Shown here piece after piece: positions 1 to 3,811 of a stretch of 64,000 bases of DNA. Source of the DNA: Leucobacter sp. Ag1 (GTDB taxonomy: Bacteria; Actinomycetota; Actinomycetes; Actinomycetales; Microbacteriaceae). The stretch lies in NCBI RefSeq assembly GCF_000980875.1, contig NZ_LAYO01000099.1:1-64000 (forward strand), in the 5' to 3' direction. The position numbers were made by a program, and so were the translations under genes. A model generated the notes under the pieces. It made no database searches. It saw only the letters and a program-made list of their open reading frames with translations, and had not been told where the DNA came from. Position 1 is the stretch's first letter. The number at the start of each line of letters is the position of its first letter.

Positions 1-948
1 CCGCCCCTCGCACCGGAGCACGACGTCGCCGGGCTTCCCGGCGGGAGCGGGGTCGCCGGGATCCGGATCACCGCCCATGATCATGCGGGCCAGCGACTCC
101 ACGGTGGCGGCCTGCCGCCGGATCACGGGTTCTGTGACCCCGGAACGGAGCACGGTGATCTCGTCGGCGACGCGCACTACCTCCGCGGGCGTGTGGCTGA
201 TGAAGATGACGGTCTTGCCGCGGCCCTCGGCCTGCAGGATCCGGCCGATCACCTCGTCCTTGTCGAGCGAGTGCGCGCGGTAGACGATGTGCTCGATGTT
301 GGCCTGCATCTGGCCCTCGTCGGGATCCGTCGCGCGGATGTGGATCGGCTTCGACATGAAGCGGCGCGCGAGGGTGACGATGGTGCCGGGCATGGTGGCC
401 GAGAACAGCATGGTGTGCCGCGTCGCCGGGGTCTTGGCGAAGAGCTTCTCGATGTCGGCGAGGAAGCCGAGGTCGAGCATCTTGTCGGCCTCGTCGAGCA
501 CCATCTCGCGCACGTTGCCGAGGTTCAGCAGGCGCTGGCTCGCGAGATCGAGCAGACGGCCCGGGGTGCCGACGACGATCTGGGCGCCGGCCTTCAGCTG
601 CTCGATCTGGCCCTCGTAGGCCTTGCCGCCGTAGATCGGGACGACCGTGGCCCCGCGGTTCTTCGCGGCCAGCTCGAGATCCTCGTAGACCTGCACGCAC
701 AGCTCGCGAGTCGGGACGACGATCAGGGCCTGCACGCCGGGCTCCGGGTAGGTGCCGATGCGCTGCAGCAGCGGGAGGCCGAAGCCGAAGGTCTTGCCGG
801 TGCCGGTCTTGGCCTGGCCGATGATGTCCTGGCCCGAGATCGCGAGCGGGATGGTCTGCTCCTGGATGGGGAAGGCGTCGACGATGCCTTCCCCTGCGAG
901 CGCGTCGACCATGTCCTGGTCGACGCCGAGTTCGGTGAAAGTGGTCAC
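1..948 (-). CDS. DEAD-box RNA helicase N-terminal domain, chimeric with sugar-ABC-transporter ATPase (3' partial)
   Basis: Begins with GTG at 948, preceded by AGGA about 7 nt upstream. Residues 1-245 are a normal DEAD-box RecA-like domain 1: a Q-motif region near 25-31, Walker A AKTGTGKT at 46-53, a PTREL motif, TPGRLL, DEAD at 152-155 and SAT at 183-185. The linker ends in GRGKTVIF (to residue 249), where domain 2 of a helicase would continue with an FTRTKR-like strand. Instead the frame continues ISHTPAEVVRVADEITVLRSG, which is the H-loop region of a ribose/guanosine-type sugar ABC ATPase (His252), followed by a VESLARMIMGG segment and an inter-domain linker. No stop or frameshift is seen before the window edge. 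Helicase motifs IV-VI are therefore missing. The helicase half is clear; the ABC assignment rests on motif reading. Confidence 0.8.
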   Translation of the reverse strand, partial: MTTFTELGVDQDMVDALAGEGIVDAFPIQEQTIPLAISGQDIIGQAKTGTGKTFGFGLPLLQRIGTYPEPGVQALIVVPTRELCVQVYEDLELAAKNRGATVVPIYGGKAYEGQIEQLKAGAQIVVGTPGRLLDLASQRLLNLGNVREMVLDEADKMLDLGFLADIEKLFAKTPATRHTMLFSATMPGTIVTLARRFMSKPIHIRATDPDEGQMQANIEHIVYRAHSLDKDEVIGRILQAEGRGKTVIFISHTPAEVVRVADEITVLRSGVTEPVIRRQAATVESLARMIMGGDPDPGDPAPAGKPGDVVLRCEGR

Positions 949-1053
949 GTGCGTCCTGTCTCGTGGGATGTCGGCTCCGCGCTGATTCGACTCTTCCGAG
1001 CGGAGCACGCTGCCGCTCCGCGGCGGCAGCAGTCTGATTTGCGTACGGCGACC

Positions 1054-1059
1054 AGTCTA
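1054..1059 (-). promoter_or_regulatory. Probable -10 element for the DEAD-box helicase gene
   Basis: TAGACT on the minus strand in the 148-bp divergent intergenic region between the helicase and the ferritin-like gene. It would give a 5' untranslated region of about 100 nt before GTG 948. No convincing -35 is seen, so this is a sequence-match inference only. Confidence 0.3.
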
Positions 1060-1084
1060 TGCCGGGGCCGGGCTCCGACGCCGG

Positions 1085-1090
1085 TACACT
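1085..1090 (+). promoter_or_regulatory. -10 element of leaderless promoter for the ferritin-like gene
   Basis: TACACT followed by exactly 6 nt and then GTG 1097. This spacing places transcription start at or next to the start codon, the arrangement seen repeatedly in this window. No recognisable -35 box. Confidence 0.5.
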
Positions 1091-1096
1091 GACGGG

Positions 1097-1816
1097 GTGT
1101 TCGAGTGGATCCGTAACCTGCGCAAGTCGTCTGCGCCCGCACGCAAGATGCGTACGCGGAGCGAATCCGACGAGGCGGTGCGCGTCGAGCTCGCCGAGTT
1201 CGCCCCCGGGATCCTGCCGTTCCTCGGCCTGACCGCGTACCTCCAGCTGGAGCTGTACGAGGCGGCGACGCGCGGTGTCTCGGGCGCTGCGACGCTCGAG
1301 GCGAAGGAGGTGCTCGCCCGGGTCGCGGGCCAGACCCTCGCCAAGCACCAGCGCTTCACCGATGAGATCCGGCGCCGCGGCAAGGAGGCGCACACCGCGA
1401 TGCAGCCGTACAGCTCGGTGATCGACGCCTACATCGAGCGGATCGACGTCGCCGACTGGCATCAGCACGTGCTGTCGCTGTACCTCGTCGGCGGTCTGTT
1501 CGACGGATTCTTCGCGAGCCTCGCGCACGGGCTGACCGATCCCTATCGCGGCGAAGCCATCGAGATCCTGGAGGACGACCCGGGCCGGGTCGCCCTGCGC
1601 GAACTGCTGGCCGCCGAGATCGCCGCGGACCCGAAGCTCGCCAACCGGCTCGCGCTCTGGGGCCGCCGCCTCGTGGGCGACACGCTGCTGGTCTCCCGGG
1701 CGGTGCTCGGGCTGAGCGAGCACCGCGAGTTCATCGCGAGCGAGGTCGAGCCGGTGTTCACCGAGCTGATCGCCGATCACATTCGACGGATGGACCGGCT
1801 TGGGCTCACGGCCTGA
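1097..1816 (+). CDS. Ferritin-like fold protein (MiaE-like hydroxylase family of actinobacteria)
   Basis: A 239-residue, mostly helical soluble protein with no signal peptide. After a basic N-terminus (about 1-25), the order of helices matches actinobacterial proteins annotated as ferritin-like fold or tRNA-(ms2io6A)-hydroxylase-like. Candidate metal ligands include Glu in the LQLELYEAA helix, Glu/His near KEVL...AKHQRF, and later acidic residues. I could not assign a complete di-iron EX2H pair, so catalytic activity is unproven. The GTG start is supported by the TACACT hexamer 6 nt upstream. It overlaps the rlmC reading frame by 17 nt and is divergent from the DEAD-box helicase, a common actinobacterial neighbour. 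The biological role is not known from sequence alone. Confidence 0.7.
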   Translation: MFEWIRNLRKSSAPARKMRTRSESDEAVRVELAEFAPGILPFLGLTAYLQLELYEAATRGVSGAATLEAKEVLARVAGQTLAKHQRFTDEIRRRGKEAHTAMQPYSSVIDAYIERIDVADWHQHVLSLYLVGGLFDGFFASLAHGLTDPYRGEAIEILEDDPGRVALRELLAAEIAADPKLANRLALWGRRLVGDTLLVSRAVLGLSEHREFIASEVEPVFTELIADHIRRMDRLGLTA

Positions 1817-3031: not shown

Positions 3032-3811
3032 TCAGCGCAGGGCGAGCGGAGCACCGAACGCGGGTGAGCCCCAGCGGCCCGGGCGGCGCAGCACCGCGGA
3101 GACCAGATCGATGCCCGCGTCGCCGACCTCCGCCACGCACACGAGCAGCGACAGGGTGGGGTAACCGTGCGGGCGATTGTCGCGGATGATCGCCCGATCG
3201 TCCGTCGGCCCCAGCTCGGCGCTGCGGGCGAGCAGCGAGATCCAGCGCTCCCGCCACTCGGGGAACGGCTCGGATCCGGACCCGGAACCCTGCTCGCGCA
3301 GCGCGGAGAACTCCGGCAGCCAGTGGGCGATCCGCGCGGTCGCGCGGTCGTCCACGCCGTCGTGGGCGAGCATGTGGACCCCGGGGGAGAGCCGCGCCCG
3401 TCGGAGATCGGACCCGCCCCACTCGGTCACGCGCGCGCCGGCGGTCGACACCTCGACGAGGCTGAACGCAGCGGTCCCCGGCGGGTCGGCGGGCTCGATC
3501 CCCGCGACCGCATCGAGCACGATGCCGCCGCGGGAAGCGAGCGGCGCCGCTCCGCGCGGACGCACCGTCTCACCGCGGTTGAGGATCACCGCGAGCCGCG
3601 CCGCACCGTCGCCCGGTCCGGCGCTCGGCCCCACGGCCGCGAGCCACGCGCCGTTCGCGCGTCGATCCCGCACGCCGACGACGCCGGGCCGCTCCTCCGG
3701 CCACCACTCGCCGGGAGGATCCCACGCGCGCTCCGGATCCTCGTCGCGCACGGCCAGCAGACGGATCGGCGCGTCCGCGCGCGTCGGGACATCGAGGATC
3801 ACCGTGCACAT
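3032..3811 (-). CDS. TANGO2/NRDE-family protein
   Basis: A 259-residue protein beginning Met-Cys-Thr-Val, with the N-terminal Cys2 typical of the NRDE/TANGO2 family, which has an Ntn-hydrolase-like fold. The family NRDE signature appears as VRDED near residue 24-28, followed by RAWDPPGEWWPE. Start ATG 3811 is preferred over an in-frame start 36 nt upstream because only it exposes Cys2, and because TAGACT lies 8 nt before it. It converges on rlmC (6 nt apart) and is divergent from coaBC. The family has been linked to haem trafficking and to coenzyme A metabolism in eukaryotes. Proximity to coaBC fits the second idea but does not prove it. Confidence 0.72.
   Translation of the reverse strand: MCTVILDVPTRADAPIRLLAVRDEDPERAWDPPGEWWPEERPGVVGVRDRRANGAWLAAVGPSAGPGDGAARLAVILNRGETVRPRGAAPLASRGGIVLDAVAGIEPADPPGTAAFSLVEVSTAGARVTEWGGSDLRRARLSPGVHMLAHDGVDDRATARIAHWLPEFSALREQGSGSGSEPFPEWRERWISLLARSAELGPTDDRAIIRDNRPHGYPTLSLLVCVAEVGDAGIDLVSAVLRRPGRWGSPAFGAPLALR

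Follow-up and report, generated by a model that had tools for sequence, protein, structure and literature searches.

An open frame that runs from a helicase into an ABC transporter ATPase

Does a single open frame at the end of a contig encode a fusion between a DEAD-box helicase and a sugar-type ABC transporter ATPase, does it record a helicase gene broken by recombination, or was it made by the assembler? The question arises at one end of the window (the whole stretch of DNA that was analysed, 64,000 nt), which corresponds to bases 1–64000 of the 78,533-bp contig C14 in a draft assembly of 111 contigs with a completeness of 99.91% and a contamination estimate of 4.47%. On the minus strand, the frame at window 1–1008 is open throughout and runs off the contig end, reading DEAD-box domain 1 up to ...EGRGKTVIF and then ISHTPAEVVRVADEITVLRSG...VESLARMIMGG. 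We consider it highly probable (about 0.95) that the assembler produced window 1–199 as a chimeric contig tip, and that no gene fusion exists here.

The original prediction, made from the letters and the open frames, described a helicase frame passing into an ABC ATPase, and this description was confirmed by the open frame itself, by a Pfam match to the DEAD domain, by weak matches to ABC models and by a close match to another contig, C55. The helicase portion (window 200–948, minus strand; GTG start at 946–948, picked by eye) is genuine and forms the 5’ portion of the gene for a DEAD-box RNA helicase; it encodes the N-terminal RecA-like domain, with the assembled ORF matching PF00270 at an E-value of 1.9e-45. 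The likeness to DEAD-box RNA helicases lies in this domain (the best NCBIfam model, found with the 530-aa ORF of the related genome G032, is CshA, below its cut-off). Compared with a complete DEAD-box RNA helicase, the C-terminal domain is missing from the assembled ORF, in which Helicase_C (PF00271) gave no match at E-values up to 0.001; this lack follows from the end of the contig and shows no biological difference. The ABC part of the frame matches sugar-ABC models weakly, the best ABC model being NCBIfam MglA (E 2.7e-6, residues 241–315), and window 1–222 gave no Pfam match at E-values up to 1, ABC_tran (PF00005) included. The window opens at the very first base of C14, that is, at the contig terminus, and the ABC part is therefore only a 66-codon tip, with the junction 199 bases from the end of the contig. 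Within these 199 bases there is no stop codon and there are no indels.

The junction coincides with a 22-bp word shared by two genes

A close relative of the tip is present in the same genome. Window 3–221 aligns to C55 with 209 of 219 bases identical, and the tip proper (window 1–199, minus strand) reads as an error-laden version of the central part of that contig’s ABC ATPase gene, sharing 188 of its 199 bases with G000:C55:148929-149127. The C55 gene is intact, encodes 515 aa with an ABC_tran match at an E-value of 1.2e-40, and adjoins genes for a BMP-type binding protein and a permease, as in sugar/nucleoside-type ABC systems with a BMP-family binding protein (best NCBIfam model ABC_ATP_B6, below its cut-off). 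Compared with this ATPase, the tip is a mere piece, 66 codons with 11 mismatches and without a Pfam ABC_tran match.

The helicase and the ABC gene are identical at exactly window 200–221 (minus strand), which comprises the KTVIF codons and flanking bases; on either side, the identity stops at the very next base. This 22-mer occurs in only two exact places of the searchable genome, C14:200-221 and C55:148907-148928. The stretch shared by the two families, proposed earlier at 202–216, therefore exists but is slightly longer than claimed. An exact junction word is thus found together with an intact parent gene elsewhere in the assembly.

Where the missing halves of the two genes lie was also asked of the assembly, and the answer was divided: the N-terminal half of the ABC ATPase is on C55, while the C-terminal half of the helicase was not found in the searchable assembly. 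A second close ABC copy was likewise looked for there and rejected, as beyond C14 only C55 is close, the next ABC protein matches being at 36% (C58) and 33% (C86). These results apply to the searchable part of the assembly: when the starts of 20 contigs were sampled, 5 were readable, and in the other 15, all of them at most 2,459 bp long, the first 400 bases read as N. Such short contigs could harbour the source of the tip, or indeed the missing half of the helicase.

The BMP-type (nucleoside/B6-like) ABC operon occupies L027:2205-7458 and is followed by an isochorismatase-like gene, the latter assigned by eye. For the part searched (L027:2200-6000), G032 lacks a close copy, the best-scoring match there reaching 73% over 162 bp, and the operon may be variable between strains.

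The helicase is intact in a close relative and its second half falls in a contig gap

The same locus was compared across the genus, with 54 genomes searched including the window’s own and 53 congeners compared; all figures refer to the matches listed. Among these matches, the left edge of the helicase match lay at window 180–200 in 50 of the 53 congeners, at 200 in 44 of them and at 180 or 183 in six. The three remaining congeners were uninformative, two (G031 and G041) being represented by contig-end fragments and one (G043) having the ABC part as its best match. In all 50 informative congeners, window 1–199 lay outside the helicase match beyond window 180 in the matches listed, and none of the matches listed in the 53 congeners spanned the junction, although a match covering both parts would have ranked at the top. 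In the closest congener among the matches listed, G032, 1280 of 1301 bases over window 200–1500 are identical and colinear, and the helicase is an intact ORF of 530 aa with both helicase domains (Helicase_C E 2.8e-33).

Alignment to G032 also shows what ought to follow. The locus L028 of G032 aligns up to base 2708 to contig C10, which ends there (90,995 of 90,995), and C14 resumes at base 3517, leaving a gap of 808 bp between C10 and C14 as measured on G032. The true continuation of the helicase falls within this gap. Outside the flanks, the missing stretch matched only paralogues on C33 (72% over 302 bp) and C72 (77% over 125 bp), the rest of the matches being 75 bp or shorter. Taken together, the relatives and the contig gap suggest that the helicase is intact in this cell. 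The proposal that the helicase C-terminal domain was lost, perhaps by illegitimate recombination, finds no support, as the place of that domain is a contig gap.

The gap has features that may explain it. The very end of C10 (C10:90936-90995; L047:4937-4996) is a 60-bp hairpin with perfect 25-bp arms, terminator-like and located downstream of the helicase gene, and the gap begins right after it. On G032, the GC content of the gap is 74% overall compared to 72% for the surrounding 7 kb, rising to 80% over the initial 392 bp and peaking at 87% per 100 bp; nowhere in the 64-kb window does a 100-bp stretch attain this peak value. Since the overall value is little above that of the surroundings, it is the local peak and the hairpin that speak for a dropout. 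According to a bird-genome paper, GC-rich stretches assemble poorly (PMC7757076), and we infer that dropout of the GC-rich, hairpin-bounded 3’ half of the gene caused the gap and with it the dead end.

At least two further drafts break within this same helicase gene: a G008 contig starts 557 bp beyond the junction, at a point where the G032 ORF has 784 bp remaining, and a G031 contig starts at the equivalent of window 261.

The same fusion is not seen elsewhere

We searched genome_contigs with a strict degenerate pattern for the fusion (EGRGKTVIFISH) and, in parallel, with a normal-helicase control (EGRGKTVIFMRTK). The control found 29 stretches, and therefore the pattern method works; 26 of the 29 records are titled Leucobacter, the others Gulosibacter, Microbacteriaceae MAG and Actinomycetota MAG. 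The fusion pattern found 0 stretches in genome_contigs, a collection that may omit the window’s own or near genomes; being strict, the pattern would overlook a fusion that carried a different residue at any of its positions. With no place found by the strict pattern and no listed congener match across the junction, a conserved fusion was rejected, and the search for the same fusion in independent genomes left the misjoin unrefuted.

The mismatches of the tip and the source of its reads

The tip is not identical to C55 and was therefore not simply stitched from the consensus of the C55 locus. Its 11 mismatches in 199 bases (5.5%) are distributed over codon positions 1, 2 and 3 as 3, 6 and 2, and nine of the 11 are nonsynonymous. 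For comparison, the differences between the helicase and its G032 counterpart over window 222–954 are distributed as 1, 0 and 16, with one of 17 nonsynonymous, a pattern that differs from that of the tip (Fisher P 7e-5). Measured against the ABC gene’s own divergence, the contrast is only suggestive: of the 211 differences that separate the C55 segment from 4 of 7 ABC homologues (72–76% identity), 109 are at third positions, compared to 2 of 11 in the tip (Fisher P 0.06), these homologues being far more diverged and hence a weaker yardstick. The HKL motif, which is kept in all 7 ABC homologues examined, reads HTP in the tip. On the plus strand, G is the new base at seven of the 11 mismatches.

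In PMC3334598, Illumina errors are described as nearly all substitutions, with 6.5% in low-quality read tails; the absence of indels and the 5.5% substitutions of our tip fall within that range. The error cited as most frequent in the same text, A to C, is not the leading change here. The sequencing data are presumably of Illumina origin, and by its mismatch pattern the tip looks error-like. At the same time, mismatches scattered at random would be just as compatible with a decaying pseudogene or copy.

A minor strain or contaminant carrying a 95%-identical ABC gene might have supplied the reads, joined at the same 22-bp word; this would still be a misjoin, only with another source of reads. 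Such a source would account for the differences between the tip and C55, and is compatible with the contamination estimate and with the many short contigs that could not be read, but divergence between close strains is expected mostly at third positions (16 of 17 for the helicase against G032), where the tip has two of 11, and the strain would have had to turn an HKL conserved in every homologue examined into HTP. We regard this origin as unlikely, and favour error-bearing reads as the probable source of the tip. What doubt remains concerns chiefly this choice between errors and a minor strain, and not the verdict of a chimeric tip.

Readings in which the junction is real fare far worse. Illegitimate recombination at the 22-bp word could have placed a second, decaying fragment of the ABC gene in the helicase with loss of the C-terminal domain, perhaps in a subpopulation only, so that some cells would have a truncated helicase. 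No stop interrupts the frame at the junction, a shared word of this length could serve a rare recombination, and the mostly nonsynonymous changes of the tip are as expected of a decaying copy. On the other hand, the contig extends no more than 199 bases beyond the junction, the missing half of the helicase coincides with a gap flanked by the colinear C10, neither the listed congener matches nor the strict pattern in genome_contigs yielded the junction, and the supposed decaying copy has neither a stop codon nor an indel. We consider such a rearrangement, whether in all or in some of the cells, very improbable; it is the contig end and the gap, and not the mismatches, that disfavour a real decayed copy. 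A true fusion protein of helicase domain 1 and an ABC fragment, endowed with a new function, would have in its favour the open frame only, and it is contradicted by an assembled ORF that matches neither Helicase_C nor ABC_tran in Pfam, that ends with the contig and whose strict pattern was not found elsewhere in genome_contigs; this we regard as practically negligible.

A proposed origin of the chimeric tip

The suspicion of an assembly misjoin raised in the original prediction is thus supported by the contig end, the 22-bp word and the intact ABC gene on C55, and also by the intact helicase of G032, the location of the C-terminal half in a contig gap and the error-like tip. We propose that, to the left of window 200, the true DNA continues with the 3’ half of the helicase gene, which would not have been covered well enough to assemble, leaving C14 with a dead end within the helicase. 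At this dead end the assembler would have crossed the 22-bp word common to the ABC ATPase gene of C55 and then taken a branch of ABC reads, short and of low quality, over roughly 200 bases. This mechanism presupposes a short-read assembly, which is likely here.

Chimeric contig ends are a familiar kind of artefact in short-read drafts. Our case shares with them the contig terminus, the short exact word and a true continuation that is hard to sequence, and nothing notable sets it apart; a literature search provided background only and found no paper describing exactly such a chimeric contig end. The locus is a clear example of how dropout, combined with a word common to two ATP-binding proteins, can give a false in-frame fusion. 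The ORF should be annotated neither as a fusion nor as a naturally truncated helicase, and bases 1–199 of C14 should be trimmed.

Other contig ends of the assembly were also inspected. Of the 5 readable contig starts, that of C10 was compared with G032; it aligns over all 400 bases at 86%, with no alien tip. The other end of C14, outside the window (C14:78493-78533; L048:2494-2534), has a 41-bp overlap with the end of C35, 39 of 41 bases being identical. A second chimera at this end was considered and rejected, given the overlap with C35, which is the syntenic neighbour of C14 on G032; by this synteny, C14 and C35 are adjacent contigs left unjoined. Lastly, contig C63 starts within DEAD-box-helicase-like sequence (C63:1-413; L029), whose matches to the window helicase reach 73% (120 bp) and 70% (106 bp); a contig end may thus interrupt a second helicase gene of the draft.
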